Shown here one piece after another: positions 2 to 21,458 of a stretch of DNA of 28,506 nucleotides. The stretch is from a virus: positions 1 through 28,506 of IMG/VR virus record IMGVR_UViG_3300048438_000210; one strand, 5' to 3'. Made by a program: the position numbers and the translations under genes. The notes under the pieces were generated by a model. That model did not search any database. It was not told where the DNA came from and saw only the letters and a list, made by a program, of their open reading frames with translations. The stretch's first letter is position 1; each line of letters begins with the position of its first letter.

Positions 2-199
2 TCAAAAGGGTCATCTGTTGCAGTCGACGGAAGGCTCGATGTCAGTAATTGGGAAGATAAAAACGGTAATAAAAGAAATAAGATTTTCTGCACGGCAGAT
101 AGTGTTCATTTTTTAAAAAGTAAAAACACAGAGGCCGACCAAAATCCAAGCCCAATGCGAGAAGAAATCGAGGAAGACCCAGACGAGGTGCCATTTTAA
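2..199 (+). CDS. ssb: Single-stranded DNA-binding protein, C-terminal part (5' end outside window)
   Basis: The open frame runs in from the left edge and ends with TAA at 197-199. The visible 65 residues begin KGSSVAVDGRLDVSNWED, which matches the OB-fold strand region of bacterial-type SSB (compare KGSQVYIEGQLRTRKW in E. coli SSB). They continue through a hydrophobic strand (FCTADSVHFL) into a short disordered linker and an acidic tip ending DPDEVPF. That acidic tip with terminal Pro-Phe is the SSB signature for binding partner proteins such as helicases and recombinases. The linker is much shorter than in E. coli. This is a bacterial-type SSB, not a T4 gp32. Its stop codon overlaps the next start by one base (TAATG), so the glycosyltransferase downstream is probably translationally coupled. 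The role is replication and recombination, fitting the RecA- and DnaB-like genes at the other end of the window. Confidence 0.85.
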   Translation, partial: SKGSSVAVDGRLDVSNWEDKNGNKRNKIFCTADSVHFLKSKNTEADQNPSPMREEIEEDPDEVPF

Positions 200-1287
200 T
201 GAAAGAATTAATAATTAAATGCCCTATTAATCACCTTTCGTTTGGCAACATATCATACAACCTACTAAAAGCAGTATATAAAAAAAATATCAATGCATAC
301 ATTTTTCCCGTAGGCAATAAAGTAGACCTGGGGGTTTTTGATAAAACTGATCAAGGGTTCTCTGAGTGGTTGCAAAACTCAATAAGCAATAGATACAGCA
401 AGCTTAATAGAGATGTCCCTTTCTTAAACATATGGCATATTTCAGGCGCAGAGGAAAGAATTTCAGATAATTGTGTTTTATATACATTTCACGAAACCAG
501 TCATTCAACAGAGGCAGAGGAGAATATCTGTAAACTTTATAATAAAGTTATATTCAGTAGTAGCTATTCATTTAATATATTCAATAATACTAATAACAAT
601 TACTCCTTCTCAAATCCTGGATTCGATCAAGATTTCTATATAAATAACAATTATAAACTTGAAAATAAAATACATTTCGGGTTAATGGGAAAGTGGGAAA
701 AACGAAAAAACACCGCACAAATCATTAAAACATGGATAAAACTTTTTGGAAACAATCATAACTATCAACTTTCCTGTTGCGTAGGTAATGATTTTTTATC
801 AAAAGAAACTATAGATCATCTAAAGCATTCTGTGCTAGAGGGTAGAAGCATCACAAATATAAATTTCCTTGATTTTATTCCAAAAAATTCGCAGGTCAAT
901 ACATACTTAAATTCAATAGATATTGATCTAGGAGGTATGAGCGGGGCAGAAGGCTGGAACCTTCCATCCTTTAATGCAACGTGTTTAGGTAAGTGGAGCA
1001 TCGTACTGAATGCTACAGCGCATAAAGACTGGGCAAATGAAAGTAATTCAATCTTAGTACAACCAACTGGAGAAGAACCTATAAAGGACGGAATCTTTTT
1101 TAAGAAAGGCGCTGATTTTAATCAAGGGAATAAAGCTTCATTTAAACAAAGTGACCTTGAGGAGGCTATGCTAAAAGCAGTAAATAAAATAGAAAATAAT
1201 ACAATAAATACAGAGGGAATAGAATTATCTAAAAAATTCACATACGAAAAAACTGCGAATAATATATTAAAATATTTTGATTTATAA
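199..1287 (+). CDS. GT-B type glycosyltransferase (GT4-like)
   Basis: A 362-residue protein whose ATG overlaps the ssb stop codon. The N-terminal half has the look of a GT-B acceptor domain, with YTFHETS near residue 94 and KVIFSSSYS near 115, as in family 1/4 glycosyltransferases. The second Rossmann domain starts near residue 157 with IHFGLMGKWEKRKN, the typical strand-loop-helix that opens the nucleotide-sugar domain. Near residue 248 GAEGWNLPSFNATCLGKW resembles the donor-binding E-x7-E region of GT4 enzymes, with the second acidic residue not clearly kept. No signal peptide or membrane segment is seen, so it should act in the cytoplasm. It lies just upstream of a fibre gene cluster, so virion protein or surface glycan modification is a plausible but unproven role. 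Donor sugar and acceptor cannot be read from the sequence. Confidence 0.75.
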   Translation: MKELIIKCPINHLSFGNISYNLLKAVYKKNINAYIFPVGNKVDLGVFDKTDQGFSEWLQNSISNRYSKLNRDVPFLNIWHISGAEERISDNCVLYTFHETSHSTEAEENICKLYNKVIFSSSYSFNIFNNTNNNYSFSNPGFDQDFYINNNYKLENKIHFGLMGKWEKRKNTAQIIKTWIKLFGNNHNYQLSCCVGNDFLSKETIDHLKHSVLEGRSITNINFLDFIPKNSQVNTYLNSIDIDLGGMSGAEGWNLPSFNATCLGKWSIVLNATAHKDWANESNSILVQPTGEEPIKDGIFFKKGADFNQGNKASFKQSDLEEAMLKAVNKIENNTINTEGIELSKKFTYEKTANNILKYFDL

Positions 1288-3934: not shown

Positions 3935-4587
3935 AAATAAGCAAGTTTAAAGAAATAAGTAACTATAAAGAAGTTAAAGATAAAAATGATGTCAAGAACT
4001 TATTAACTAATATTCAGGATTCCAATGAAAATATATCAATAAATACTGAAGGCTTGCAGGAAATAAAAACATCAATCGAAAACCTGCCAACTAGAACTGA
4101 CAAAACAACCATATTTAACCAAAAAGTTGAAGAGGATTTAATCATCATGGAAACTCCAGATGATCTATTCTCAATACCCCAAGAATGCAAAGACTTCTTT
4201 AATGAAACTACGCAGCTGCCAGAAATCAGCCAGTTCTTCATACTTTCTGAGGAGGCAAAGGATGATAGGTGCGTTAAAAGAAAATACAACTTTGACCTAG
4301 AGCAACCTCTGGGAATTCGACAAGATACCTATATGGGCGATCCAGATGGGTTTGTTAAAATTTCAGGCGATGTACAAAATCAATTTACAGATATAACAAT
4401 AGTAAATGATACATACTATAAAGTAAAACTAAGAATAGATGACGACCAGTCTGAGATCTCAGTAGAAGACGGTTTTAGTTTAACCCTCAATGATATAGAA
4501 AAAGAAAATGAAATTTTATTTAAAAGAGATCACACGATATCAGGATATACATTAAATTATGTTGTTGAAGGTAAACTAAATAAATGA
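3931..4587 (+). CDS. Unknown structural-cluster protein, 218 aa
   Basis: The start overlaps the previous stop (ATGA), and its own stop overlaps the next start the same way, so it is the middle of a three-gene translationally coupled set. The first 70 residues are polar and probably helical (for example NISINTEGLQEIKTSIENLP). Residues 70-130 hold a mixed region with PDDLFSIPQECKDFF. The last 90 residues look beta-rich (FTDITIVNDTYYKVKLRID, then SGYTLNYVVEGKLNK), like a small beta-sandwich tip. I do not recognise a family. The position between two repeat-rich fibre-like genes suggests a virion protein such as a fibre tip or adaptor, which is inference only. Confidence 0.6.
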   Translation: MKISKFKEISNYKEVKDKNDVKNLLTNIQDSNENISINTEGLQEIKTSIENLPTRTDKTTIFNQKVEEDLIIMETPDDLFSIPQECKDFFNETTQLPEISQFFILSEEAKDDRCVKRKYNFDLEQPLGIRQDTYMGDPDGFVKISGDVQNQFTDITIVNDTYYKVKLRIDDDQSEISVEDGFSLTLNDIEKENEILFKRDHTISGYTLNYVVEGKLNK

Positions 4588-5342
4588 AAATACGTAGGCA
4601 TAAAAACTTAATCCGCGAGATTGCTCCTGGTGAGATAGTCATTGGAAATAATCCCTTTGCGCCTACATTAAAACTTGACGAACTAACAAGAAAAGCTGAA
4701 TTAGACAATAATACTGTTTTAGTCGAACCAGATTTATTACATATATCTGGTAAAAGTATAAATTATGAAACCCTAAGCATAATATCAGGATCCTTCGAAA
4801 ATAGACCTCAAGCAGAAAACAGAGACATACTACTAGAAGGAGATCTAGATCCAGACTTGAATGAATTAAGAAGCGAGGATATATCAATTAGAAGCGATTT
4901 ACAAAATGCTAGTGGCATATTAAATGATCAAATAATTAATGAATCCCAAACTAGGCAACTAGAAGACCATAACTTAAGCTCTTCAATCCTTCTTTCAAGC
5001 GGAATCCTCGATCAAGAGATATCTGAACTTGAAACAGATCTCATTACGGCAAGCGGAATCCTCAATCAAGAGATGTCTAACATTGAAACAGATCTCATTA
5101 CGGCAAGCGGAATCCTCAATCAAGAGATATCTGACCTTGAGGCAGATCTCATTACGGCAAGCGGAATCCTCAATCAAGAGATATCTGACCTTGAGGCAGA
5201 AAGCCAAGAATTAAATACAAAAATCAATCAAGCTAGCGGCGATTTAGCAACGCAAATAGAAAATATTGAATTAGAGGGTGGCGCAGTAACTTATCAGCAA
5301 GCTAGTGATTTAGCTAAAAAATGGGCAATAATTCTAGGTTAA
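4584..5342 (+). CDS. Coiled-coil repeat protein, probable fibre, 252 aa
   Basis: The start overlaps the preceding stop by ATGA. Residues 1-90 form a mixed N-terminal domain beginning MKIRRHKNLIREIAPGEIVI. Residues 90-230 are coiled-coil-like with four near-identical 18-residue units of the form DLITASGILNQEISDLEA. The last 25 residues end in YQQASDLAKKWAIILG. Eighteen residues equal five alpha-helical turns (or a heptad plus a hendecad), fitting a straight, rod-like bundle. The same 18-residue period is used by the two fibres at 18265-20754, although the sequence differs. The stop codon abuts the stop of the convergent minus-strand gene with no base between them. Probably a virion fibre or chaperone-like stalk; the exact role is unknown. 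Confidence 0.65.
   Translation: MKIRRHKNLIREIAPGEIVIGNNPFAPTLKLDELTRKAELDNNTVLVEPDLLHISGKSINYETLSIISGSFENRPQAENRDILLEGDLDPDLNELRSEDISIRSDLQNASGILNDQIINESQTRQLEDHNLSSSILLSSGILDQEISELETDLITASGILNQEMSNIETDLITASGILNQEISDLEADLITASGILNQEISDLEAESQELNTKINQASGDLATQIENIELEGGAVTYQQASDLAKKWAIILG
4999..5208 (+). repeat. 54-bp tandem repeat, about four copies
   Basis: GCGGAATCCTC recurs at 4999, 5053, 5107 and 5161, exactly 54 bp apart. The intervening sequence (GATCTCATTACGGCAA, CAATCAAGAGATATCTGA) is almost unchanged between copies. The period is 18 codons, in frame with the coiled-coil protein, so copy-number change would alter stalk length without a frameshift. Confidence 0.9.
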
Positions 5343-8746: not shown

Positions 8747-11272
8747 TTAGGTTTCCTCCAAAATAATAGCTGCACTTAAACTCGATATACTAGTTTTGCC
8801 TGAAACTATATCACCCAATTCCTCTGCAACTAGAGCGGAGTCTAGCCTTGGAAGTGTCATTTTTTGAGGCAACGAACCTTCTGCCTCAATAATAATTGAC
8901 GCACTTTTAGATGTTATGTACAAAGTATTATCAACCGTTTCTAGAATTAATTCGGGACTAATAAAATCAAAAGACATAAACTTTTCAGGTAGAGCTAATA
9001 TTAACTCTGGAGATAAAACATCAAACTCCACAGGAGACCACTGCAAAGCGGGGTCTTCAGGGTAGTCATCTCGATTATCCCCAACTCCATCTGAGTCGGC
9101 ATCTTTATTTTCATAAGGGTCTTCGGGGAATTCATCAGAGTTATCACCCACCCCATCACTATCAGTATCACTAATTTCTGTCGGATCGTCGGGGAAAGCG
9201 TCAAAAATATCTGGGTATCTATCTCCATCAGAATCTACAGGAACAGTGTCAGAATAGTAGTCTTGTATTAAATCTGAAGGCAAGTCAGGCATTTTTATTG
9301 AAGCGACTCCGTAATCCTCGCCCTCTATTCCGGTAGATAAAATATTATCAGGTATGTAATAAGTTCTTCCTTTTAAATCGTAAGCAGTGCTTTCGCCTAT
9401 GCCTTGTTCAGAAAGATAAACTGGCCAGTAGAATCCTTGGCCTTCAACATAAGTATACATTGGATCGTTTGCGGATAGGTTAGGATTATCAGGGAATTCA
9501 TCAGAATTATCCCCTACACCATCATTATCACTATCAGCAAATTCACTAGGATCGTTAGGGAATGGGTCAAACACATCAGGATAACCATCTCCATCCGAGT
9601 CAACAGGCAGGTCATCTGAATAGTAATCGACAGTTAAGTTCAAAGAATCAGAAGGATACTTAAGAGTGGCAATTCCATAATCCTCTCCCAAATCTCCGGA
9701 GGATACGACATCATTCGGCATATAGTAGGTCCTACTGTTCAAGACGTACGGGGTGCTTTCACCAATATCCTGGTCAGAAAGATAAACTGGCCAGTAGAAT
9801 CCTTGACCTTCAACATAAGTATAAAGAGGGTCATTGGTGGATAAATTAGGATTATCAGGAAAATCGTCTGAGTTATCACCAACTCCATCTCCATCACGAT
9901 CGGAGCTTTCGCTTGGATCTTCAGGAAAAGCGTCAGAATTATCCCCGACACCATCTTGATCGGTATCTATTGCTTCTGTCGCATCATCTGGAAACGCGTC
10001 TACATTTTCTCCATATTGATCCCCGTCTGTGTCAGCCCAATTTATATCCAATGAAGATATATCATTCTCTCCGTTAACCTTAACTTTATCAATTGTTATT
10101 ACAGACCCGCTACTTGTGCTATATGTTCCAGCCAAGATATTCCTAACAGAACCACCGTCATTAGCATAATAGGTATCGTCAATATAATAACTAGAAGCAG
10201 TTTTATCCTCACTCCAGTTGCCGTCGTGAGAGAATGTAATTTCCCCAACGCTAGAATTAACTCTTATTTCAGAAATATGCGGCTCTCCAGATATGCTAGT
10301 AGATTGAAGCTTAACAGAAGGATCTAAATTTATTTTAGATAAGACATTCTTCTTTCTGATTACGGCGCCCTCCGAATGAGTATTAATAAGCGGCGCAGTC
10401 AATATTAACGAGCCAAACCCGGCGACAACCCCTTCTTCCTCAAACGGAGACCCTTCATCTATTATAACTTCATCTCCTATCTCAAAATCTCCTTCATTAT
10501 CAACGATCAATCGATTATTGCCATCATTAGCGTCAACCACGAGTCTTGTCATGTTATCAAAAGTTGAAACAAGAGTAAACGGGGTATCTACATCAAATTC
10601 ATTTGGCACGCCGTCGCCATCAATATCTGTGTCTGAATTGTCACCTACCCCATCGCCATCAGTATCTACAGATTCTAGAGGATTCAAAGGAAACGCGTCA
10701 GTATTATCCCCGATGCCGTCTCTATCACTATCCGTTGTTTCGGTTGGGTCCAACGGAAACGCATCTTGACTATCAGTTACTCCATCACCATCAGTATCAG
10801 GGTCAATGTAACTCTTAGCAAATATGTGAACCTTAAACCCTTCTTCCCTTATTTCATCACTAAGGTAAAAATCAAATTCATCCTTTTTAATATTCGCAAC
10901 ACCTGTTACATAAAAATTAAAATCAACCCCAACCGGGGATTCTAATTGAACAAAAACTGAGACCAAGTCTCCTGCTAATGTTTTACCATAAGAAATTGTA
11001 GAAGAGGTGAAGCCTATTGGCAATCGATAAGTTGTAATTGCCTCTGAGGCAGAAGCCTCTTGCGCGACAAAAGTATCCCTAACAGGCTTCCAATATAACT
11101 GCTGAGACTGGTCAAAATCAGAAATAAAAAATTGACCACTTTCATCAGATGCTACGGCCCCCTCAAAGGGAGGGGTTTGCTGTTGGAGAAACGCTTTGTC
11201 TACTTTTTGCAGCTTTAATGGCATTGCTGCCAATATATTACCTAATTGGGCTTGTACATTTTGTAAGCTCAT
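8747..11272 (-). CDS. Large modular adhesin with TSP3 repeats and two YTYV/FYWP modules
   Basis: An 841-residue protein. Residues 1-77 form a virion-type N-terminus. Residues 78-153 are a beta-sandwich (YRLPIGFTSSTISYG, FDFYLSDEIREEGFKVHIF) like the C-terminal domains of the two fibres at 18265 and 19543. TSP3-type Asp-rich calcium repeats lie at 157-229, 413-473, 557-597 and 679-742. Two copies of the YTYV/GFYWPVYLS module lie at about 480-555 and 602-676, and a beta-rich C-terminus carries twin SPELIL motifs. Residues 235-410 hold a further beta domain. A GGAGG lies 12 bases before the ATG. It is probably a calcium-stiffened tail fibre or receptor-binding protein. TSP3 proteins in bacteria are usually outer surface proteins, so the repeats may have been acquired from a host adhesin. 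Function is inferred. Confidence 0.7.
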   Translation of the reverse strand: MSLQNVQAQLGNILAAMPLKLQKVDKAFLQQQTPPFEGAVASDESGQFFISDFDQSQQLYWKPVRDTFVAQEASASEAITTYRLPIGFTSSTISYGKTLAGDLVSVFVQLESPVGVDFNFYVTGVANIKKDEFDFYLSDEIREEGFKVHIFAKSYIDPDTDGDGVTDSQDAFPLDPTETTDSDRDGIGDNTDAFPLNPLESVDTDGDGVGDNSDTDIDGDGVPNEFDVDTPFTLVSTFDNMTRLVVDANDGNNRLIVDNEGDFEIGDEVIIDEGSPFEEEGVVAGFGSLILTAPLINTHSEGAVIRKKNVLSKINLDPSVKLQSTSISGEPHISEIRVNSSVGEITFSHDGNWSEDKTASSYYIDDTYYANDGGSVRNILAGTYSTSSGSVITIDKVKVNGENDISSLDINWADTDGDQYGENVDAFPDDATEAIDTDQDGVGDNSDAFPEDPSESSDRDGDGVGDNSDDFPDNPNLSTNDPLYTYVEGQGFYWPVYLSDQDIGESTPYVLNSRTYYMPNDVVSSGDLGEDYGIATLKYPSDSLNLTVDYYSDDLPVDSDGDGYPDVFDPFPNDPSEFADSDNDGVGDNSDEFPDNPNLSANDPMYTYVEGQGFYWPVYLSEQGIGESTAYDLKGRTYYIPDNILSTGIEGEDYGVASIKMPDLPSDLIQDYYSDTVPVDSDGDRYPDIFDAFPDDPTEISDTDSDGVGDNSDEFPEDPYENKDADSDGVGDNRDDYPEDPALQWSPVEFDVLSPELILALPEKFMSFDFISPELILETVDNTLYITSKSASIIIEAEGSLPQKMTLPRLDSALVAEELGDIVSGKTSISSLSAAIILEET

Positions 11273-11273
11273 A

Positions 11274-13655
11274 TTACTTAGGTTCCTCCACTGTAATAAA
11301 AACGTCTTTAACGTTTCCTGCGTTTGTTATGACTTGATTATCAATGACAATTTTATTACCATCGACTATTCCAAATGCGGACTCTAAATTACTAACCCCA
11401 TCTTGCTTTGCCCCGGTAATAGTCGAGTCATAATCTACTGAAAAAGAATTACCTCCATCAGGCTGAACAGAAACAATTAATTTATTCACATCATAAATTT
11501 CAACACCTAAATCTACAGGCTCGTAAGCTGTAGCTAAGGCAGTCACGGTCCTTTGATTAAAACCTCTTACCGTAGCAATATCTGAACCTGGGAAAGTATC
11601 CCCAATAATCTTAGTTCCTGTAAAATTAATCGTAAAAGGCCCTCTAGGGGTAGAATCATCTACGGATATTTGCATAGAATAATTTTTATTACCATTTCTG
11701 GTTAAATTTGAAACAGATATACTCGCGTCAGAAACAGAATCAACAATCAAATCTGAAATTTCTTCCCCTATACTTATGCTTATATTATTTAGAACCGCTC
11801 CAGAATTAGAAGAGCTAAAAGTATTTGGAGAAAAACTTAAAGAGGGAATTGTACTGAACGATTGTACCTGAACCGAAGAGCTTGAGAAGCTAGAGGTCCG
11901 CCCGTTAGAAGCCTTCCATAGCGTCACAGACATGGAGCCGCTAGTTCTATTTGTCGCATTTTCGGCTGAAACCAAAAACGGTTCTTGCGTTAAATCTGAA
12001 GCAGGTCTTTCATTGGGGGGTGTCGAGTTGCTATCGGCGGGTGTAGAAATAAACTTCAATATAGAACTTTTAGAAAAACTGTAATAATCAAAATTACTCG
12101 CTGACACATTAAAATTCACTCTATCAGTTGTATTATTAATTATACCTGTAGTATTTGGAACCTGAACAGTATTGACATGGGTTGAAATTTGATATGAAAG
12201 TAAATTATGTCCATTTGAAATGCCAGATCCTGCACTTCCATTATAATAATGTGTTCTGCCCGCAGATGCATCAGCAATTGACCCATTAACCCAATTCTCA
12301 AACCAACTAACTTGAGGGTTAGATGAAGAAATTTTTATAGAAAGGGTTTTACCATCACCGCTTAAAGAAAATTGATTAGAAGGCTGGCTAAAACTAATAT
12401 TTGCAGATGTTACGCCTAAATAAACACCCGTTAAGTTAACATAAACATATCGACTCGGCCACCGTCCGTGCCCAGTACCTATTCTAACCTGCACACTACT
12501 TACGACAGTAGTTGGAGCTATAGATGAAGATATACTACCAGACGGAGATTGATTATTAGTGGTAATCGTATTAGAAGAAGTCAATGTTGTAGATTGGTTG
12601 CCAACTAAATCCCAGGTTTTTGCTGTAAATGTTTTATCAGAAGGAGAATTTCCTGCTCCAGATATATTTACATTAGCTTCGACAGTAAAAGTGCCATCGC
12701 CATTATCATTAAAACCACTATAAATATATTTTGATGATATTGCTGATCCAGCCAATAAAATCCTATTAGACTGCTTTCTGACGGTCACCCTAACTCTCGC
12801 AGTGTCTCCATTTTTTGCTTCCGTCTGTTGAGATGATACGTTACCAGCTGTCGCAGAATTAAAAGATGAAGTTCCATAAAAACTTGAAGAGCCTTGTAAA
12901 TTAATGAACTCTGCACTAAGAACTTCTGGAGGGGTGTCTCTTTCTATAGAGATAAATGTTGTACGCGAGCCATTTTTAAATATGTATGTATTAGGAACGG
13001 AGGAATCAACCCTTACAGATGTATTAAAAGAATAACCATTATAGTGGGTAGAAAGACTGCTATCTGGTATTTCTACTGCATTATCGGGGTCGCCGCTCAC
13101 ATAGTAAGAAATCTTTGGCTTGTAAGTTTGAGCGTCTCCCCTCTCTACCATTAAGTTAACATCTACTAAATCGCTTGCTGTTCTAATTTTTCTTATTATC
13201 GCTCCCCCATAATCAGATTCTAATATTTCCTGAACTCCGCCAACCGCGCTAGTGCTAGTCACAAAAACTGGTCCGGTATCCAAACCTCCAGATGATTCAC
13301 CTCCTGTACTAGAACTATCCGCGCTTATTTGCCCAACGACAATTTCATCAAAATAACCCGTTTGACCAACGAAAACAGAAGAGCCTATCTGAGAATTAGC
13401 TCCGCCAATAGTTGTCTCGCCGACAACTAGTTCATCAAAAAACCCGGTCTCGCCCCTGAAAACATAACCACTAATATCCCCAGATTCAGAAGTAAAATCT
13501 ACAATTTGGGACACTCGCATGTTACCAGAAATTTCTAAATCCCCACGAATCGTTACGTCATTAATAAAATCTTTATGACCAAAGACCTCTTCGTCTCCAC
13601 TCAACCTCATGTATAGGCCAGAAATTGCTTCTTCTTTTGGTATGAATCCTGCCAT
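11274..13655 (-). CDS. Large beta-rich tail-fibre-like protein, 793 aa
   Basis: The start codon overlaps the upstream stop (TGATG), and the stop lies one base before the next start. Residues 1-130 form a shaft-like region. It has DVTIRGDLEISGNMRVS followed by two copies of a GxTGxFDExVVGxT motif, a pattern seen in beta-structured trimeric phage fibres. Residues 130-790 are rich in Ser, Thr and Asn with Ig-like segments, for example FTAKTWDLVGNQSTTLTSS near 340, which resembles bacterial Ig-like repeats. The C-terminus (VIVDGNKIVIDNQVITNAG-type strands) is also beta-rich. No signal peptide, transmembrane helix or enzymatic motif is seen. Probably a long tail fibre or side fibre with an extended Ig-like region. 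Which end binds the virion is not certain, but the N-terminus is usual. Confidence 0.65.
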   Translation of the reverse strand: MAGFIPKEEAISGLYMRLSGDEEVFGHKDFINDVTIRGDLEISGNMRVSQIVDFTSESGDISGYVFRGETGFFDELVVGETTIGGANSQIGSSVFVGQTGYFDEIVVGQISADSSSTGGESSGGLDTGPVFVTSTSAVGGVQEILESDYGGAIIRKIRTASDLVDVNLMVERGDAQTYKPKISYYVSGDPDNAVEIPDSSLSTHYNGYSFNTSVRVDSSVPNTYIFKNGSRTTFISIERDTPPEVLSAEFINLQGSSSFYGTSSFNSATAGNVSSQQTEAKNGDTARVRVTVRKQSNRILLAGSAISSKYIYSGFNDNGDGTFTVEANVNISGAGNSPSDKTFTAKTWDLVGNQSTTLTSSNTITTNNQSPSGSISSSIAPTTVVSSVQVRIGTGHGRWPSRYVYVNLTGVYLGVTSANISFSQPSNQFSLSGDGKTLSIKISSSNPQVSWFENWVNGSIADASAGRTHYYNGSAGSGISNGHNLLSYQISTHVNTVQVPNTTGIINNTTDRVNFNVSASNFDYYSFSKSSILKFISTPADSNSTPPNERPASDLTQEPFLVSAENATNRTSGSMSVTLWKASNGRTSSFSSSSVQVQSFSTIPSLSFSPNTFSSSNSGAVLNNISISIGEEISDLIVDSVSDASISVSNLTRNGNKNYSMQISVDDSTPRGPFTINFTGTKIIGDTFPGSDIATVRGFNQRTVTALATAYEPVDLGVEIYDVNKLIVSVQPDGGNSFSVDYDSTITGAKQDGVSNLESAFGIVDGNKIVIDNQVITNAGNVKDVFITVEEPK

Positions 13656-13963: not shown

Positions 13964-15956
13964 TCTCCTGCCTCCGCTCACTATGATAATAAAGTGCCGC
14001 AGGATATAGTGGCATTTCTTTACTCTGGCTAATATCTAAAATGCTTTCAATGCAATTTAAATTAGATATTTTATTATTATCATCTATGCAAGCCTCGGCT
14101 AAAGATTCCCACGATTCTGATTCAGCGGAACAAATAATAGACTCACATAAATCTTCTGCAGCTTTATTCTGAGACTTGTTTAATTTCTTTTTATATTTAG
14201 AACTCAAGCCTTTCTTAATAAACTCGCTTAAACTTTCAGCTTTATATATAATCTGCTGAATATCTTCTTTTGAAATTTTATCACCTGAACTCTGCTGGGG
14301 AATACCCTTGGTTCCTGTAGGCCTGCCGGTCTCTCCCCCGCCTCCGCTAGGAGCAGGAGTTTCCTCAGATCCAGCGGGCGCAATCATGGGAACTCCGCCA
14401 ACCAAAGGGTTATAAAGACCTTCTTCTCTTTCTTTAGAATAATTCTCTTGAGCACCCTTTAGGTCTAAAGTCTGAGGGTATATTCCAGTTTTAATAGCAT
14501 CAATTCCCTGCTCTGGAGTCAGGACTCCTAACTCTAGCAACCTAGTCACTACTCTCTGAAACTGAACTTCATCCTTGATGTCGATTTCCTCAAACTTAGC
14601 CCTAGGATAATCTCTTAACCCTAGATTTTGACAAACCAATTTAATTTGAGGTTGAAGAAAATCATTCAAAAAAGCATTCCGCGCCTCTTTTAATCTTTCT
14701 AAAAATATTTCAGCCTTAACCTGGGTATTACTATAACGCTCGTCGCCAACGATAATATTTTGAAGGCCTTCTTTAATATCTTGATTAACAATTTGGTATT
14801 TATCGGGACCGACAACCTTTCTTAGGTCGGGTATGACAAAATCAGCTTTAGTGGTATAGTCGCTAACTAAAACCCTACCAACACTTTCATTCATAAAGAG
14901 AGACTGCATGGCCTCTAAATTCTTAGGATTAATCCCACCCTTATCAGGCTCGGCGCCCATAGTTATTAAAAGTATTACATTTTCTATTGTCCTGCAAATA
15001 GCTTGATCAATTTTTTTAAGCTCTATCTTATAGTTTATATCATCTAAAACAGGGTAACCAAACGGCACAGCGAATGGTTCATAGTCTTGTTTTTTATAAA
15101 AAGAATATATCAACCTCTTAGGGTCCAAAGGTATTTCAACCCCATCTCTAGTGAACGAGCCAGACTTAATCTTGTTTCTTAATTCTGAGTCCAAGCTTTT
15201 AAAAACTTGCTCGTCATACTCTGTTTTAGGGTCAGCCAAGCGCTCGAGATCATATTCGGATAAAACCTTAAAATAAGCCCCATCAGAAAATGAAGTTGAT
15301 CTTTTAGCTGTAATATCATAAGGGTTTAAAAATATATATTTTAAAGGTATCATTCCGGGCCTAATAGAAGACCCATAGATTTTAGAAATTTTATTAAAAT
15401 CTTCCTGAGAAAACCTTCCATCAACTCTATACATAAAAATATTTCCAGAGCGATAATACTCCCTGAAATATTGATCTCTCACCTTCCATAAAGATATCTT
15501 ATCGAACCATTTAAGGCAAAAATCTCTGCCTTTCTGATTTCCGCCTTCGAGAATTATATCTGAATTAGCAAACTCAGACATTACATCTACAGCATTCCTA
15601 AATATAGATATATTAGCATAGGCCTTCTGGCATAACTCAACTGCTTGTCTAATATTTATACCAGTAGAGCTAGAATCATAAGGCAAAAGCCCAGCTTCTA
15701 TATTTGAAAACTGGCTTTTCTTGCTAGAGTTATGAATCTTATTCTTTCTTCTTGCTCCATCAATTGCATCAGACTCTGCTCTAGATCTGCTTGCAAGAGA
15801 TTCTATAGCAAAAGAATGAGTGCCCTGTGTATAATAATTCTCACCAGCAAATATTGGAGGAATAGATTGTTCTTGGGGTTTTTCAATATTACCTTGAGAT
15901 GATTTGTCAAACTTTTTCCAATAGTCAGACTTTTTATTATACTTTCTTTTCTTCAC
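13956..15956 (-). CDS. Portal protein with C-terminal extension
   Basis: A 666-residue protein. It has the hallmarks of a tailed-phage portal: an N-terminal basic tail, SIFRNAVDVMSEFANSDI near residue 117, a wing region with YREYYRSGNIFMYRVDG-like sequence near 165, IPLKYIFLNPYDI near 205, the stem/crown helix region LEAMQSLFMNESVGRVLV near 345, and EARNAFLNDFLQPQIKLVCQN near 435. Portals form the dodecameric vertex through which DNA is packaged. Most are about 450-550 residues. Here a Gly/Pro-rich linker (about 529-558, including GGGGETGRPTGTKG) leads to an extra helical, Lys- and Ser-rich domain of about 108 residues. The start is GTG at 15956, preceded by TGTGTAAAGT and 5 bases. It heads the minus-strand operon that continues into fibre genes rather than into prohead protease and capsid. 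Confidence 0.85.
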   Translation of the reverse strand: MKKRKYNKKSDYWKKFDKSSQGNIEKPQEQSIPPIFAGENYYTQGTHSFAIESLASRSRAESDAIDGARRKNKIHNSSKKSQFSNIEAGLLPYDSSSTGINIRQAVELCQKAYANISIFRNAVDVMSEFANSDIILEGGNQKGRDFCLKWFDKISLWKVRDQYFREYYRSGNIFMYRVDGRFSQEDFNKISKIYGSSIRPGMIPLKYIFLNPYDITAKRSTSFSDGAYFKVLSEYDLERLADPKTEYDEQVFKSLDSELRNKIKSGSFTRDGVEIPLDPKRLIYSFYKKQDYEPFAVPFGYPVLDDINYKIELKKIDQAICRTIENVILLITMGAEPDKGGINPKNLEAMQSLFMNESVGRVLVSDYTTKADFVIPDLRKVVGPDKYQIVNQDIKEGLQNIIVGDERYSNTQVKAEIFLERLKEARNAFLNDFLQPQIKLVCQNLGLRDYPRAKFEEIDIKDEVQFQRVVTRLLELGVLTPEQGIDAIKTGIYPQTLDLKGAQENYSKEREEGLYNPLVGGVPMIAPAGSEETPAPSGGGGETGRPTGTKGIPQQSSGDKISKEDIQQIIYKAESLSEFIKKGLSSKYKKKLNKSQNKAAEDLCESIICSAESESWESLAEACIDDNNKISNLNCIESILDISQSKEMPLYPAALYYHSERRQEND
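13966..13975 (-). promoter_or_regulatory. Shine-Dalgarno deciding the start of the 102-aa gene
   Basis: GGAGGCAGGA on the minus strand, ending 2 bases before the ATG at 13963 (the GGAGG core is 7 bases upstream). It lies inside the portal reading frame. It supports the internal ATG over the upstream GTG and shows that SD initiation is used inside this operon. Confidence 0.7.
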
Positions 15957-16070: not shown

Positions 16071-17180
16071 ATGAAAATAGGTATTACTTCAAAATTCTCT
16101 TGCAGCTTCTTTTCCAATGGATTAAATCAAAACCTTGTGCTACTATATGAATGCTTAGAAAGCGTTGGATTTGAAGTTTACTTCCTTGACTTTACAAACA
16201 AAGTTAAGGGTGAAGAATTTAATAATCACTTCTTCATAAATGGTAAAAATATAATAAATTGGTGGGACTTCAATGACTCAAGTTTAAAATTTGATATTTT
16301 ACTTTGCCCAGGAGTTGCGTGCAATGATGATATACGAAACTCAATAAAACAAAAAAATAAAAAATGCAAAATTATATCAATAAAATATGGAAACAATTTA
16401 TTTACAGATTCACACAAATTATCGCTATCAAACATACCTAGTTATTATTCAATTAATATGAACAGGCAACATGACCATGTGTTGTATTCTCCTCATTATA
16501 AGTTTTCAAAGCAATATTTAGAATTTACTGAAAAATGTAGCAGCTCAGAGATTCCATATATTTGGGATCCAAAATTTATTAACCACGAATCCGAAAGCTT
16601 ATCAATCGATCCTACTTTTAAGCCTAATGCAAAACCTAACATTGCGGTGATGGAGCCAAACTTAAACTTCTCAAAGACAACAACTATACCATTCCTTGCC
16701 TTAATAAATTTAATAGAACAAGGCAACGCAGACAAATTTAATGAAGCTTATATTTTTAACAACAATAATAATCTAGATTTCTCGGAGCTATCAGACTATT
16801 TATATAAAGATACAATATTAAAAGAACATAGGAATCGAATCTTTTTTGACCCCAGGCAAAAAACCCCTTCAATCTTAAATAGAGACAACCCAATAATATT
16901 ATCACATCAATTTTATAATGAACTTAATTATCTTTATCTAGAAGCTATATATTACAACTTCCCATTAATACATAACAGTGAACCATTCAAAGATTACGGT
17001 TACTACTACGAAGCTTTTAATATTTTTGACGCAACCAACATGATATTGAAATGCATCAAAGATCAAGACCACTGGCCAGAAACAACTCCAGACAAAGGAC
17101 TCGAGATAATCCATACGTATAGTATAGAAAATAATAAACATAAAATTAAAAATTTAATTGTTTCAATCATCAATGATTAA
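16071..17180 (+). CDS. DUF2827 family protein, putative glycosyltransferase (copy 1)
   Basis: A 369-residue protein beginning MKIGITSKFSCSFFSNGLNQ, the typical DUF2827 start (xIGIT, then a W/FSNGxxQN motif). Other family-like blocks are IAVMEPNLNFSKTTTIPFLA near residue 190, and near 280 ILSHQFYNELNYLYLEAIYY leading to PLIHNSEPFKDYGYYY. The C-terminal block resembles the nucleotide-sugar binding side of GT-B enzymes. DUF2827 has no assigned biochemical function that I know of; many members lie in glycan or phage clusters, so a glycosyltransferase role is inferred. No signal peptide or membrane segment is seen. It overlaps the second copy by 8 bases and precedes two Ser/Thr-rich repeat fibres, making those fibres the natural candidate substrates. 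Confidence 0.7.
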   Translation: MKIGITSKFSCSFFSNGLNQNLVLLYECLESVGFEVYFLDFTNKVKGEEFNNHFFINGKNIINWWDFNDSSLKFDILLCPGVACNDDIRNSIKQKNKKCKIISIKYGNNLFTDSHKLSLSNIPSYYSINMNRQHDHVLYSPHYKFSKQYLEFTEKCSSSEIPYIWDPKFINHESESLSIDPTFKPNAKPNIAVMEPNLNFSKTTTIPFLALINLIEQGNADKFNEAYIFNNNNNLDFSELSDYLYKDTILKEHRNRIFFDPRQKTPSILNRDNPIILSHQFYNELNYLYLEAIYYNFPLIHNSEPFKDYGYYYEAFNIFDATNMILKCIKDQDHWPETTPDKGLEIIHTYSIENNKHKIKNLIVSIIND

Positions 17181-18252
17181 CATAGGTATAACATCTCAGC
17201 TCTCAAAATCTATATGGTCTGGCAGCTTAAAGCAGTCGGCGATAAATTTATATGAATGCCTAAGTGCCTGCGGGTTTAACCCATTCTACCTATCAAATAA
17301 TTCTCAAATTAGCGACTTTAATAAAAATCATAAAGCTTATAATATAAACCAAATCCTTTTTGATAAATTCCCAGATTTACATGTATTAATAATGCACGGC
17401 TTCTCAATAAATGATAAAGAATTAACTGAAATTAAAAAAAGGCATAAAAAATGTAAAATAATATTATATTATAATAATAATAGAATTGATATTGACCAAC
17501 AAAATCTACTTTCAGGAAAAAGCTTTCAACCTAGAATTGATAATTTAGACGAAGTATGGATCTATGGTCATCACACTGAATCAGCACAGTACGTAAAGGC
17601 TTACCACGCCACGGACGCAACCGTAAAAAACGTTCCATTCCTTTGGTCTCCTTACTATATTAATCTAGCAAAGAAAAAAAGAGATATAGAATTCAATCCC
17701 GACAAACCCGTGCAAATATTAGTCATGGAACCTAATGAAAATTCTTCAAAGACCTGCCTTTTACCCTTATTGATATGCGAAAACTTTAATAGAAGTTTTG
17801 GCAAATTTTGTGCCAGCTTTAGTTTCTTTAATACAGATAAGATTAAAGTCAATAAAGGAGCCAAACAATTAATCTCAAAATTTTCCTCTAGCCAGCAAAA
17901 TAAAATCTTTTTAAATAAATCATGGAAATCTATAGACGCAATAGATAGATTAGGACAGTTTGTATTATCCCATAATTCTTCCGAAGAAATAAATTACCAA
18001 TTCATGGAGTGTCTGCATCTCGGACTGCCCCTTATACATAACTCAAAAATAATTAAAGAGTACGGATATTATTATCCAGAAAACGATATATATACTGCTT
18101 CAAACCAAATTTTTAATGCCATACAAAACCACAAAGAAAATCTGCCATATTACAAAGCAGAAAATCAAAAATTAATTAATAGTTTATTACCTTCTACTGA
18201 GGGTAATATTAACTTTTTCAAAAAAAATATTTCCCATTTAATAAATTCATGA
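17173..18252 (+). CDS. DUF2827 family protein, putative glycosyltransferase (copy 2)
   Basis: I start at the ATG at 17173 (MINIGITSQLSKSIWSGSLK) because it aligns with the start of the first copy (MKIGITSK) and gives an 8-base overlap; a TTG at 17158 would add five residues. The 359-residue product shares with copy 1 the VMEPNxNxSKT block (near residue 182), the LSH-x-NY block and PLIHNSKIIKEYGYYYP (near 285-300). The two are diverged paralogues in tandem, so they may act in sequence on one glycan or on different donors. In copy 2 the family SNG/Q motif reads SGSLKQS. Function is inferred as for copy 1. Confidence 0.68.
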   Translation: MINIGITSQLSKSIWSGSLKQSAINLYECLSACGFNPFYLSNNSQISDFNKNHKAYNINQILFDKFPDLHVLIMHGFSINDKELTEIKKRHKKCKIILYYNNNRIDIDQQNLLSGKSFQPRIDNLDEVWIYGHHTESAQYVKAYHATDATVKNVPFLWSPYYINLAKKKRDIEFNPDKPVQILVMEPNENSSKTCLLPLLICENFNRSFGKFCASFSFFNTDKIKVNKGAKQLISKFSSSQQNKIFLNKSWKSIDAIDRLGQFVLSHNSSEEINYQFMECLHLGLPLIHNSKIIKEYGYYYPENDIYTASNQIFNAIQNHKENLPYYKAENQKLINSLLPSTEGNINFFKKNISHLINS

Positions 18253-18259
18253 GTATATA
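18231..18259 (+). promoter_or_regulatory. Weak candidate promoter before first 18-mer fibre
   Basis: GAGTATATA at 18251-18259 is one base from the GTGTATATA element at 8731 and is also exactly 5 bases before the ATG (18265). A TTCCCA at 18231, 17 bases before TATATA, could serve as a poor -35. It overlaps the end of the second DUF2827 gene. Confidence 0.3.
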
Positions 18260-18264
18260 GTTTC

Positions 18265-19521
18265 ATGCCTAGAAGTACAAACTTCGAGGAGCTAGTACTA
18301 AATGGAACTTCGCTCAAAAAGAGCGCTTCAGATAAACTTGGAGTTAATTCCGTAGTACTTGCCGATTCAGACGATATAACCAGTGTTGATTTAAGAATCC
18401 AAACTCAGGAAGCTGGACGCTCTACTAATGTAGATAGTTTAGATACTAGGATTTCTCTTGAAGAAATCGGGGAAACTGAAAATGCTGGAAGCATTGATTC
18501 TAGAGTTGGAACTCAAGAAGCAGATCGTTCAATCAACGTAGATAGCTTAGACACTCGTGTAAGCATTGCAGAAACTACTCGCTCCGGTAATATATCCAGT
18601 ATTGACTCAAGGGTCTCAACAGATGTCTCAGGTAACTCAGACGGAATTGAAAGTCTTGAAGTTGATATATCTATTGAAGAAAGCACAGAAACCGCAAAAG
18701 TTTCAAGTGTTGACTCAAGAGTCGCAGCCCAGGAAACTGAACGCTCTACTAACGTAGATAGCTTAGATACCAGGGTTTCTCTTGAAGAAAGCACAGAAAC
18801 CGCAAAAGTTTCAAGTGTTGACTCAAGAGTCACAGCCCAGGAAACTGAACGCTCTACTAACGTAGATAGCTCAGATACCAGGGTTTCTCTTGAAGAAAGC
18901 ACAGAAACCGCAAAAGTTTCAAGTGTTGACTCAAGAGTCGCAACCCAGGAAACTGAACGCTCTACTAACGTAGATAGCTTAGATACCAGGGTTTCTCTTG
19001 AAGAAAGCATAGAAACCGCAAACTTCGCCAGTATCGATTCCAGGATATCAACTGACGTATCAGGAAACTCAGACAAGATTGAGAGCCTTGATATAGAAAT
19101 ATCCGTAGAAGAAAGTACGGAAATTGCACAAGTTTCTAGCATTGAGACAAGAGCTTCTACTCAAGAATCTAAACAGTCAACAGAAGTTGACAGTATTGAC
19201 TCTAGATTACAGCTAGAAGAAGCAACCACTACAATATCTTTAGATATACCCGTAAGCGGTAATGCCTCTCATCTTGATGTTAATTTCAGTAGCGCTGGAT
19301 ATAGCTCAAATGATACAATTATTGTATATGGAGCCTTAAGAGATGCAGCAGATAATGCAAACAACCCTATTATTATGCCACAGATTTCTGGAGCAAATAG
19401 CCATAATAGCGTTACATTTATTTTCTCGGATTCAATTCCAGAAAATCAAAACAGTATTATACATGATCAAAACAGTGATTATGTTATGGACTGTATATTC
19501 AAACAAGAAAACCAAAACTAA
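18265..19521 (+). CDS. 18-residue-repeat coiled-coil fibre protein (copy 1)
   Basis: A 418-residue protein. The N-terminal 35 residues begin MPRSTNFEELVLNGTSLKKS, a plausible virion anchor. Residues 36-315 are a tandem array of 18-residue units alternating between types such as SSVDSRVAAQETERSTNV and DSLDTRVSLEESTETAKV. Hydrophobic residues recur at helix-compatible spacing and Ser/Thr residues recur at fixed positions in each unit. Residues 320-418 form a beta-rich head (ASHLDVNFSS, NSVTFIFSDSIPENQNS). The head resembles the ends of the next gene product and residues 78-153 of the 841-aa adhesin. The layout (anchor, helical rod, beta tip) is that of a tail or whisker fibre. It lies 12 bases after the second DUF2827 gene, so it may be made and modified in the same operon. 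Confidence 0.7.
   Translation: MPRSTNFEELVLNGTSLKKSASDKLGVNSVVLADSDDITSVDLRIQTQEAGRSTNVDSLDTRISLEEIGETENAGSIDSRVGTQEADRSINVDSLDTRVSIAETTRSGNISSIDSRVSTDVSGNSDGIESLEVDISIEESTETAKVSSVDSRVAAQETERSTNVDSLDTRVSLEESTETAKVSSVDSRVTAQETERSTNVDSSDTRVSLEESTETAKVSSVDSRVATQETERSTNVDSLDTRVSLEESIETANFASIDSRISTDVSGNSDKIESLDIEISVEESTEIAQVSSIETRASTQESKQSTEVDSIDSRLQLEEATTTISLDIPVSGNASHLDVNFSSAGYSSNDTIIVYGALRDAADNANNPIIMPQISGANSHNSVTFIFSDSIPENQNSIIHDQNSDYVMDCIFKQENQN
18673..19010 (+). repeat. 108-bp near-perfect tandem repeat in fibre gene
   Basis: TTGAAGAAAGCA-type units recur at 18673, 18781, 18889 and 18997, exactly 108 bp apart, with only a few base changes per copy. Each unit codes for 36 residues, two 18-residue coiled-coil segments. 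Weaker copies extend on both sides. Near-identity suggests recent duplication or gene conversion. Confidence 0.9.
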
Positions 19522-19542
19522 TTTTGGTTAGAAAGTTAAAAG

Positions 19543-20754
19543 ATGCCAAATAAAGTAGCATTAGAAACGCTCGCCTTAAACAATGTTGACATTGTTATCT
19601 CCACAGATAACAAACTTTTTGTCAACGACATAAGGCAAGCAGATAGCCTAAATATCGACAGCGTCGATACTCGCGTTTCTCTTGAAGAAAGCACTGAAGC
19701 CGCAAAGGTTTCCAGCATTGACTCAAGAGTTGCAGTAGAAGAAACTGCTCGTTCCGAAGACGTAGACAGCGTCGACACTCGCGTTTCTCTTGAAGAAAGC
19801 ACTGAAGCCGCAAAGGTTACCAGTATTGACTCAAGAGTTACAACAGAAGAAACTGCTCGTTCCGAAGATATAGCGAGCCTCGACACAAGATTAGCAAGTG
19901 CTGGGTCTTCAGACTCAACAAGCATCGCTAGTCTTGACACTAGAGTCGGCGCAGAAGAAACTGCTCGTTCCGAAGACGTAGACAGCGTAGACACTCGCGT
20001 TTCTCTTGAAGAAAGCACTGAAGCCGCAAAGGTTTCCAGTATTGACTCAAGAGTTGCAGCAGAAGAAACTGCTCGTTCCGAAGACGTAGACAGCATCGAC
20101 GCTCGCGTTTCTCTTGAAGAAAGCACCGAAGCCGCAAAGGTTTCCAGCATTGACTCAAGAGTTGCAGCAGAAGAAACTGCTCGTTCCGAAGACGTAGACA
20201 GCATCGACACTCGCGTTTCTCTTGAAGAAAGCACCGAAGCCGCAAAGGTTTCCAGCATTGACTCAAGAGTTACAACAGAAGAAACTGCTCGTTCTACTGA
20301 CGTAGACAGTATCGACACAAGATTAGCAAGCGCTGGATCTTCGGATTCAACTAGCATTGCCAGCTTAGATACTCGATTCGGGATAGAAGAAACTGCTCGT
20401 TCCGAAGACGTAGACAGTATCGACACTCGCATTTCTCTTGAAGAAAGCACCGAGGCTAACAAAATTGCAAGTATAGATACCAGGCTTGGACTGGAAGAAA
20501 AAACGACCCAAGTCGCAACACTAGCGCTCACTTCTGGAGCGGAGTCTGTTGAAATTAATTTCAGCAGCGATCTCTCCATGGAAGGATTCACTTCAACCCC
20601 AGCGGTTGCAGCGATGATGAGAAATACGGACGCTAGCGCTTCAATTATCATACCTATGTTAGTTGGAACAGTATCAAGTACAGGATGTAAGTTTGTATTT
20701 TCTGATAACATTGTTGGAAATAATTACAAAATGGACATCATCGTCACAGACTGA
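19543..20754 (+). CDS. 18-residue-repeat coiled-coil fibre protein (copy 2)
   Basis: A 403-residue paralogue of the preceding gene. The N-terminus MPNKVALETLALNNVDIVIS is the anchor-like part. Residues 40-315 repeat SSIDSRVAAEETARSEDV and DSIDTRVSLEESTEAAKV, again 18 residues per segment. The array is interrupted twice by a SLDTRLASAGSSDSTSIA variant that may be a break in the helix. Residues 320-403 form the same type of beta head (ESVEINFSS, CKFVFSDNIVGNNYKMDII). It has no GTGTA element or clear Shine-Dalgarno before it (AGTTAAAAG precedes the ATG). It follows the first copy by 21 bases and is closed by a strong terminator. Two different heads on similar rods could allow two receptor specificities or a heteromeric fibre. 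Confidence 0.7.
   Translation: MPNKVALETLALNNVDIVISTDNKLFVNDIRQADSLNIDSVDTRVSLEESTEAAKVSSIDSRVAVEETARSEDVDSVDTRVSLEESTEAAKVTSIDSRVTTEETARSEDIASLDTRLASAGSSDSTSIASLDTRVGAEETARSEDVDSVDTRVSLEESTEAAKVSSIDSRVAAEETARSEDVDSIDARVSLEESTEAAKVSSIDSRVAAEETARSEDVDSIDTRVSLEESTEAAKVSSIDSRVTTEETARSTDVDSIDTRLASAGSSDSTSIASLDTRFGIEETARSEDVDSIDTRISLEESTEANKIASIDTRLGLEEKTTQVATLALTSGAESVEINFSSDLSMEGFTSTPAVAAMMRNTDASASIIIPMLVGTVSSTGCKFVFSDNIVGNNYKMDIIVTD
19660..20440 (+). repeat. 108-bp tandem repeat array in second fibre gene
   Basis: GTTTCTCTTGAAGAAAGCAC and GAAGAAACTGCTCGTTCCGA recur through the gene in 54/108-bp register, in frame. Two copies are replaced by the related variant around 19880-19940 and 20310-20370. 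The array resembles, but is not identical to, that of the preceding gene. Confidence 0.85.
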
Positions 20755-20780
20755 TATTTTAGCTTAGCTAAATTCTCTAA

Positions 20781-20806
20781 GGAGACTCTTCGGAGTCTCC
20801 TTTTTT
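20781..20806 (+). terminator. Rho-independent terminator with UUCG loop
   Basis: GGAGACTC (20781-20788), loop TTCG, GAGTCTCC (20793-20800), then six T. The stem is a perfect 8 bp with a stable UUCG tetraloop. It ends the DUF2827-fibre transcript and lies 27 bases after the fibre stop codon. It is the only classical terminator I see in the window. Confidence 0.92.
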
Positions 20807-20807
20807 G

Positions 20808-20817
20808 TGTGTAAAAA
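20808..20817 (+). promoter_or_regulatory. Candidate GTGTA-class promoter directly after terminator
   Basis: TGTGTAAAAA begins immediately after the terminator T-run and ends 5 bases before the ATG at 20823. The pairing of terminator and promoter marks a transcription unit boundary. Confidence 0.5.
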
Positions 20818-20822
20818 TATAC

Positions 20823-21458
20823 ATGTTCAATATGTTTGAAAATTGGAAAAGAGATAATATTGATAAATATAATCACATGAATAAAAAAAATAACACAAAA
20901 AAAGAAATAGACCCAGAAAAGGCCAAAATAATAAGAAAGCTTAAGCATAAAACAAAATACCTGGATATAGAATATGAAGAAGTTCTAGATTTACTTAGCG
21001 AAGCCAAACTAAACTTCTTTAATACAATACGAGAATATTGCACAAAAAACCCTACGGCAGAAAACCCACTTCAACCAATAGAGCAAGAAAGAGAAAAAGG
21101 TGACAATAATAAAAATGTAGATTCTGAAGAGGTAAAGTCTATCTATAGGGAGATTGTTAAGGCAACGCACCCAGACAAAAACCCTGGGACAGAAGAAGAG
21201 GCTAAAGAAATATTTATTAATGCATCTCAAGCTAAAGAACAAAATAAAATTGAAGATCTCATAAACATATCCTTTGATTTAGATATTGATATATCTGACA
21301 TAAGTATTGGCTTAATAGAAGAAATAGAAAATTCATTATTAGAAAAAGAGCTTGAAATACAAAAAATGAGAAAGGACACCGCAATTCAATGGTATAATTC
21401 TCCACAGGATATTAAGAATAAATTAATCGAACAAATATGTCCAACCCCAGATAAATAA
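20823..21458 (+). CDS. J-domain (DnaJ-like) phage protein
   Basis: A 211-residue protein when started at the ATG at 20823; an upstream TTG at 20805 lies in the terminator T-run, and an ATG at 20832 is also possible. Residues 30-75 form a charged helix. Residues 100-145 hold the J-domain core, KSIYREIVKATHPDKNPG, with the HPD motif at 116-118 that stimulates DnaK ATPase, followed by EEEAKEIFINASQAKEQNK matching helix III. Residues 146-211 are a helical tail (LIEEIENSLLEKELEIQKM). There is no Gly/Phe region or zinc finger, so it is a type III J protein. It could recruit host DnaK to phage assembly or replication complexes; the client is unknown. Confidence 0.75.
   Translation: MFNMFENWKRDNIDKYNHMNKKNNTKKEIDPEKAKIIRKLKHKTKYLDIEYEEVLDLLSEAKLNFFNTIREYCTKNPTAENPLQPIEQEREKGDNNKNVDSEEVKSIYREIVKATHPDKNPGTEEEAKEIFINASQAKEQNKIEDLINISFDLDIDISDISIGLIEEIENSLLEKELEIQKMRKDTAIQWYNSPQDIKNKLIEQICPTPDK

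Follow-up and report, generated by a model that had tools for sequence, protein, structure and literature searches.

A 28.5-kb virus record (IMG/VR record IMGVR_UViG_3300048438_000210, analysed over its whole 28,506 nucleotides and called the window here), part of a larger marine phage genome, carries two tandem genes for proteins of the uncharacterized family DUF2827, followed by two genes for serine-rich fibres built on an 18-residue repeat. We conclude that these four genes form a real and conserved cassette, which probably serves fibre glycosylation. On the + strand, between 16071 and 20802, the order is DUF2827-1, DUF2827-2, fibre 1, fibre 2 and terminator (Table 1). Twelve bases separate DUF2827-2 from fibre 1 and 21 bases separate fibre 1 from fibre 2, both as claimed in an earlier, sequence-only reading of this DNA. 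That reading also had the DUF2827 genes overlapping, which they do, although by 8 bases (17173-17180) and not by the 23 that follow from the TTG at 17158 from which the DUF2827-2 open reading frame (ORF) was listed. The start is most likely the ATG at 17173, because the start codons of the orthologues align there, and an 8-base overlap is likewise found in the related loci L003 and L004. The single terminator said to close the set is a hairpin whose 10-bp stem carries a TTCG loop and is followed by a T tail. No other intergenic terminator-like site was found on the + strand of the window, the remaining ones being intragenic, at 15513-15532 in the portal ORF and at 17798-17816 and 18185-18208 in DUF2827-2.

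Each fibre is composed of an N-terminal module (N-module), a repetitive stalk and a C-terminal module (C-module), and the self-identity of each peaks first at a lag of 36 residues and then at 18 and 54. Across the 32 units of the two stalks the serine at position 1 is invariant (32/32), Asp-3 and Arg-5 are each kept in 30/32, and position 4 is Ser or Thr in 28/32, which bears out the earlier claim that Ser/Thr occupy fixed positions of the unit. Ser and Thr together make up 30-31% of the stalks, compared with 11-15% of eight other window proteins. At 3.6 residues per turn of an α-helix, 18 residues are exactly five turns, and a face of the stalk helix therefore repeats without drift. Drawn on an ideal helix, the stalk units have a Ser/Thr vector at 299 degrees and a hydrophobic vector at 129 degrees, placing Ser/Thr opposite the hydrophobic face. 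An AlphaFold2 model of fibre 2, calculated for a single chain and of moderate confidence (predicted local distance difference test, pLDDT, of 62), has the helices given in Table 1 and β-structure after residue 322. Foldseek matched its C-module weakly to tailspikes, to H-type lectins and to the fibre tips of R-type pyocins, among them an R1 pyocin tip at E=0.009; the best match has prob 1.00. Searches of PHROGs and NCBIfam with the fibres returned weak repeat matches and nothing more.

The DUF2827 proteins: predicted fold and diverged partners

Both proteins match PF10933 (DUF2827), with 171.4 and 169.8 bits against a gathering score of 25, over positions 12-354 (protein 1) and 8-361 (protein 2) of the 362 in the profile. 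PHROGs and NCBIfam searches gave them no assignment, and a DUF2827 sequence profile found no relative among PDB sequences, so that the evidence for the fold rests on structure prediction. The AlphaFold2 model of DUF2827-1 (pLDDT 92.5, predicted template modelling score 0.91) contains two Rossmann-like domains, and Foldseek matched it in the PDB to BshA (E=6e-10), glycogen synthase, MshA, PimA, WaaG and SdgB (with an SD peptide). Nearly all of the matches listed are GT-B glycosyltransferases (GTs), with the best template modelling scores at 0.6-0.66, and from this model DUF2827 is predicted with high confidence to be a GT-B fold glycosyltransferase.

In an alignment of 66 members, all from the window or from the loci fetched for comparison, the conserved positions (DUF2827-1 numbering) include N197 and K202, where the second domain begins, and E291 and P298 within an 'E-A-x-x-x-G/N-x-P' motif, together with the invariant P162, W165, G310, H301 and N302, the last two being the family motif. 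K202 and P298 are each present in 65/66 proteins and E291 in 59/66, with Asp in the rest. A GT4-like nucleotide-sugar site has an R/K pair and an E-x7-E motif; the first Glu of the latter is replaced by Asn in most members, and only three of the 66 match Glycos_transf_1, the Pfam family of retaining GT4-type enzymes, all weakly (best E=0.0019) and none of them a window copy. The conserved positions may represent a GT4-like site, and we infer that these residues serve the sugar donor. The Foldseek matches also include T4 α-glucosyltransferase, a GT-B DNA glucosyltransferase (1y8z, E=9e-7), as would suit an enzyme that modifies nucleotides or DNA (hypermodified bases) and lies beside fibre genes through position alone. 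We regard this as extremely improbable, given that no base-modification gene was recognized beside the DUF2827 genes of the window and that the adhesin neighbourhoods and Ser/Thr bias described below have no link to DNA modification.

In a tree of the 66 proteins the first and second genes of pairs fall mostly into separate, well-supported groups, and the pair is therefore old and not the product of recent duplication. Record L011 keeps both kinds of DUF2827 at a distance of ~55 kb, and the two copies are separated by a further gene in L166, L168 and L173. Out of 31 conserved columns, DUF2827-1 of the window departs at 2 and keeps 29, and DUF2827-2 departs at 7 (G17S, N21S, G107N, P141G, R262S, N283E and L285I in protein-1 numbering), with E195, N197, K202, E291, H301 and N302 retained. 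The sites at which its relatives in L003 and L048 depart overlap with these, and the same holds elsewhere in the tree for the first copy of L018 and the first copy of L059. The L059 pair is bacterial (2476-3618 and 3634-4803), and its diverged copy has lost 11/31 conserved residues, including the equivalent of K202; judged from its sequence, this copy is a probable pseudo-enzyme beside a better-conserved partner. Both copies look intact in most L005-type pairs. These substitutions suggest that some lineages combine an active with a degenerate partner, and the two proteins of the window may not be equivalent enzymes. Locus L003 has three tandem DUF2827 genes (8877-12179), followed by fibre 1 and the start of fibre 2.

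DUF2827 beside phage fibres and bacterial adhesins

The N-module is common to 17 fibres from 16 loci, and those of them that are complete have the C-module as well. Their stalk sequences are wholly different ('SLDTRVSLEES', 'SSLQAEDVKNESDLSVDV', 'RRSAVKLNKSHIDLQTSY'); the 18-residue period persists throughout, with Ser+Thr at 22-39%. Most of these fibres were found via DUF2827 and hence form a biased sample. Six loci were reached without DUF2827 as bait, L166, L168, L169 and L173 through one fibre and L176 and L207 through the portal, a single fibre and the portal being used because the C-module alignment is too variable for a pattern scan. The DUF2827 pair is present in 6/6 of these loci, all with upstream sequence; in L207 no DUF2827 lies within the 10-kb flank of the fibre, and a search of the whole record placed the pair just upstream. 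Among 21 portal-family records of at least 45 kb, DUF2827 is found in four and an N-module fibre in two, both of them among those four (hypergeometric 6/210, P=0.029). The gap between DUF2827 and fibre is 13-37 bp in the window, L003, L004 and L011 and ~40 bp in L176. The sequence-only reading had proposed that DUF2827 might glycosylate the fibres. Of the outcomes that it named as refuting, two can be examined computationally, a DUF2827 fold lacking a sugar-nucleotide site and no co-occurrence across genomes, and neither went against the proposal. The GT-B fold is predicted, and the co-occurrence holds in other phages and, unexpectedly, extends to Ser/Thr-rich trimeric autotransporters in bacteria, so the proposal is partly supported; sugar transfer, acceptor and glycan are the portion that we infer.

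In other phages the DUF2827 pair is followed, often ahead of the fibre, by genes for GT25, GT34, DXD-type GTs/Gly_transf_sug, WbsX, pyruvyl transferase or sulfotransferase, an arrangement that would suit a pathway in which the first steps of glycan assembly are fixed and the last ones vary. It is well known that some phage GTs act on glycans of the host surface, and the polysaccharide-type enzymes in this series (GT25, WbsX, pyruvyl transferase), as well as the likeness of the fibre C-module to carbohydrate-binding fibre tips, would also suit a DUF2827 that glycosylates host surface polysaccharide in seroconversion or superinfection exclusion, its adjacency to fibres then reflecting co-evolution of receptor and receptor-binding genes. 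We consider this unlikely. No membrane flippase or anchor protein was recognized beside the window genes, and it is the Ser-rich stalk fibre that tracks with DUF2827, whereas the C-module alone is also found in loci without DUF2827. In bacteria, moreover, DUF2827 stands beside trimeric autotransporters, which are proteins of the cell's own surface, and preferentially beside those rich in Ser/Thr.

DUF2827 is rare across Pseudomonadota (6/398 genomes) and common in the taxonomic family of genome G327 (86/299 genomes). In 7/8 genomes with both families, an adhesin with a YadA anchor (a trimeric autotransporter) ends at most 2.5 kb upstream of DUF2827 and is co-directional with it, a proximity with a chance probability of ~2e-16 as calculated from anchor number and genome sizes. 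The median Ser+Thr fraction of the stalk is 0.34 in the DUF2827-adjacent adhesins, compared with 0.19 in the others of the same genomes (5 versus 22 measurable, P=6e-4). Judged by an anchor or a signal-extension motif, 15/20 genomes have an adhesin within the stretch that was inspected, as do 28/30 further loci of the G327 family, for which YadA anchors were scanned for on C-termini without HMMER's bias filter. The L058 adhesin has a stalk of 18-residue units in the style of the phage fibres ('SLSTAASTEASTRGSADT'). In genome G173 three DUF2827 genes (L081, G173:C1:543638-547036) have no adhesin beside them, and one Ser/Thr-rich trimeric adhesin lies 2 Mb away (L127, Ser+Thr 0.35), a layout that is compatible with DUF2827 action in trans and proves nothing.

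The bacterial loci also bear on whether DUF2827 glycosylates another virion protein, such as that of the capsid or tail tube or one of the large structural proteins encoded next to the portal, with the 18-mer fibres as bystanders in a late operon. Passages in two reports describe capsid and tail-tube glycosylation by phage GTs as established in mycobacteriophages (PMC12363180, PMC12619734), and fibres other than 18-mers adjoin DUF2827 in several phages. However, the Ser-rich fibre is the tightest and most conserved neighbour in the lineage of the window, and what the bacteria share is the Ser-rich fibre or adhesin and no capsid, which makes such a substrate quite unlikely.

Several observations weigh against reading the four genes as a fibre-glycosylation cassette. 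Generic repeat ORFs within two genes of phage DUF2827 are not enriched by local permutation (10 observed, 8 expected, p=0.2), because the structural regions are rich in repeats, and the adjacency of 18-mers to DUF2827 is modest (p=0.009 among all ORFs, 0.085 among repeat ORFs). The 18-mer proteins of Arthrobacter phage Atuin and E. coli phage mEp010 have no GT annotated beside them. DUF2827 lies away from fibre genes in L046, L047 and L056, which belong to one phage lineage, and the L044 fibre is on the strand opposite its DUF2827 pair. Among the bacteria, 5/20 genomes lack an adhesin in the inspected stretch, some clusters (L153-L157) likewise have none there, three of them sitting among other GT-like genes, and many of the genomes are related, so the counts overstate independence.

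The absence of a general repeat enrichment would also fit an association that arose by chance in repeat-rich structural regions, with an unrelated small molecule as the substrate of DUF2827; the top fold matches, BshA and MshA, make low-molecular-weight thiols and act on malate or inositol phosphate. This we judge very improbable, as it leaves unexplained both the bacterial association and the fibre and portal surveys made without DUF2827 as bait. What DUF2827 accompanies is the family of Ser-rich fibres in its particular setting and not repeats in general. The substrates of DUF2827 may nevertheless vary. In L046, L047 and L056 a single DUF2827 gene is followed by that of a small conserved protein, and in L153, L154 and L155, from small bacterial genomes, DUF2827 trios stand among GT-like and methyltransferase-like genes with no adhesin and possibly act on another substrate.

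Proposed action of the cassette and its setting

For fibre glycosylation we propose the following course. The DUF2827 pair would act in the cytoplasm of the infected cell on newly made fibre chains, priming Ser/Thr of each helical stalk unit in the two co-transcribed fibres. Ser-1 of each unit would be the likeliest main acceptor, followed by Ser/Thr of the outward face, and because 18 residues make five helix turns the acceptors would form a straight, outward-facing row on the rod. DUF2827-1 is the likelier catalyst, and DUF2827-2, short of residues conserved across the family, may extend the glycan or help DUF2827-1 in the manner of GtfA/GtfB or SdgB/SdgA. If the fibres are carried in the virion, the glycan would stay on the assembled rod and might benefit the phage by protecting the rod or tuning binding; any influence on the binding of receptors or on recognition by the host is speculative. 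Tentatively, we extend this to a broader possibility, that DUF2827 is a dedicated O-glycosyltransferase family for the long trimeric helical fibres of phages and for bacterial trimeric autotransporters, recognizing the outward Ser/Thr rows of an 18-residue helix, with an active and a degenerate partner in several lineages, the degenerate one being protein 2 in the window and the first copy in L018 and in L059.

The proposal offers a function for DUF2827 and a concrete prediction of the stretch and residues involved, and one enzyme family would link phage fibre biology with Gram-negative adhesins. If it is true, phages carry their own O-glycosylation systems for fibre proteins, as modular cassettes that swap sugar-tailoring enzymes beside a constant priming pair, which bears on the understanding of receptor binding, virion stability and recognition, and there are then candidate enzymes for the O-glycosylation that is suspected in Ser/Thr-rich trimeric adhesins. 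The presence of the same enzyme family beside bacterial serine-rich adhesins suggests a widespread, hitherto unrecognized sugar-coating system for long helical fibres. A tblastn search with four diverse DUF2827 members gave no match among 50,697 isolated-phage records, and the full-text literature searched holds a single mention of DUF2827. Pairing an enzyme with a serine-rich repeat is a familiar concept; what appears new within that literature is the enzyme family, its proposed substrate of helical fibres and the fact that phages and trimeric adhesins have this in common.

The window also encodes a UvsX-like recombinase, a ribonucleotide reductase small subunit and an ORF that by eye only resembles a replicative helicase. 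A structural-region ORF on the - strand (8747-11272) has a thrombospondin type 3 repeat match (E=9e-7), and the gene after the fibres (20805-21458, +), which encodes a DnaJ domain, has an apparent homologue behind the fibre in most relatives (L013, L043, L166, L168, L176, L207). That the fibres are chance ORFs was considered and rejected, their N- and C-modules being conserved across phages; the long antisense ORFs over them (18513-19142 and 19536-20711) are by-products of the repeats. A Halobacteriovorax contig from a metagenome-assembled genome, binned as bacterial (L057, PBIO01000004.1), carries a fibre, a DUF2827 pair and apparent homologues of the structural genes of the window, a hint that this phage group has a Bdellovibrionota-like host.

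Table 1. Coordinates of the cassette and of a possible accessory gene in the window
Feature	Position	Strand	Evidence
DUF2827 protein 1 (369 amino acids), predicted GT-B glycosyltransferase	16071..17180	+	PF10933, AlphaFold2, Foldseek, conserved columns
DUF2827 protein 2 (359 amino acids from ATG; TTG start at 17158 possible)	17173..18252	+	PF10933, comparison with L003/L004, tree
Fibre 1 (418 amino acids): N-module of ~39 amino acids, stalk of 18-residue repeats (residues 40-327), C-module	18265..19521	+	
Fibre 1 stalk: sixteen in-register 18-residue units, Ser1 invariant	18382..19245	+	
Fibre 2 (403 amino acids): architecture as fibre 1; modelled helix 40-119 and 131-316, C-terminal β domain	19543..20754	+	
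Fibre 2 stalk: sixteen in-register 18-residue units, Ser1 invariant	19660..20523	+	
Fibre 2 C-terminal β module, common to the other fibres of the family	20467..20751	+	Alignment and Foldseek
Intrinsic-terminator-like hairpin at the end of the set	20779..20802	+	
Glycosyltransferase-like gene, 15 kb from the cassette; possible accessory, putative membership	199..1287	+	PHROG 2170 (phrog_2170), E=3.6e-10

Relation to known glycosylation systems

Glycosylation of phage structural proteins by phage GTs has a precedent in the mycobacteriophages Che8, Corndog and Myrna, in which the capsid and tail tube are modified (Freeman et al. 2023, as cited in passages of PMC12363180 and PMC12619734). The cassette proposed here is similar in that phage GTs would serve the phage's own structural proteins, and it differs in having helical fibres as candidate targets in place of capsid or tail tube; the comparison concerns the systems as they are described there. 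In Gram-negative bacteria, autotransporter adhesins are glycosylated in the cytoplasm by NGT-type and other enzymes, NGT modification being N-linked (PMC5303269, PMC3835316). The enzyme families involved differ from DUF2827, and DUF2827 adjoins trimeric Ser-rich adhesins. One Ser/Thr-rich trimeric autotransporter, BCAM2418 of Burkholderia cenocepacia, has repeats that its authors suggested may be O-glycosylated, with no enzyme named (PMC7142374). The DUF2827 clusters adjoin adhesins of this kind, a comparison made by adhesin type.

The sequence-only reading had likened the layout to that of serine-rich-repeat adhesins encoded beside their own GTs, and in layout the likeness is apt. In the GtfA/GtfB system one protein is catalytic and the other a chaperone, and both are encoded with a serine-rich-repeat adhesin and the accessory Sec system (PMC6973325). 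The cassette likewise encodes a GT-like pair with a putative serine-rich substrate and, in other phages, variable extending GTs. Unlike GtfA/GtfB, it stands in a Gram-negative or phage setting and lacks accessory Sec genes: family searches found no SecA2/SecY2 or Asp family among the window proteins, and because these export genes were not found we do not count the cassette as a member of the accessory-Sec system. A division into catalytic and helper proteins is only hinted at by the residue loss in DUF2827-2. The staphylococcal SdgB/SdgA are two GT-B paralogues that O-glycosylate Ser-Asp-repeat adhesins (PMC8561734, PMC3794999). They have an extra inserted domain, ~500 residues and cell-wall protein targets, in contrast to the ~360 residues of DUF2827, which neither Pfam nor NCBIfam assigns to those enzymes and whose partner is an α-helical phage fibre. 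What the two have in common is a paralogous GT-B pair, here predicted, and a long stalk of serine-rich repeats, and the Foldseek matches of DUF2827-1 include SdgB; the combination of a GT pair with a serine-rich repeat protein is present in the window and in the six loci found without DUF2827 as bait.

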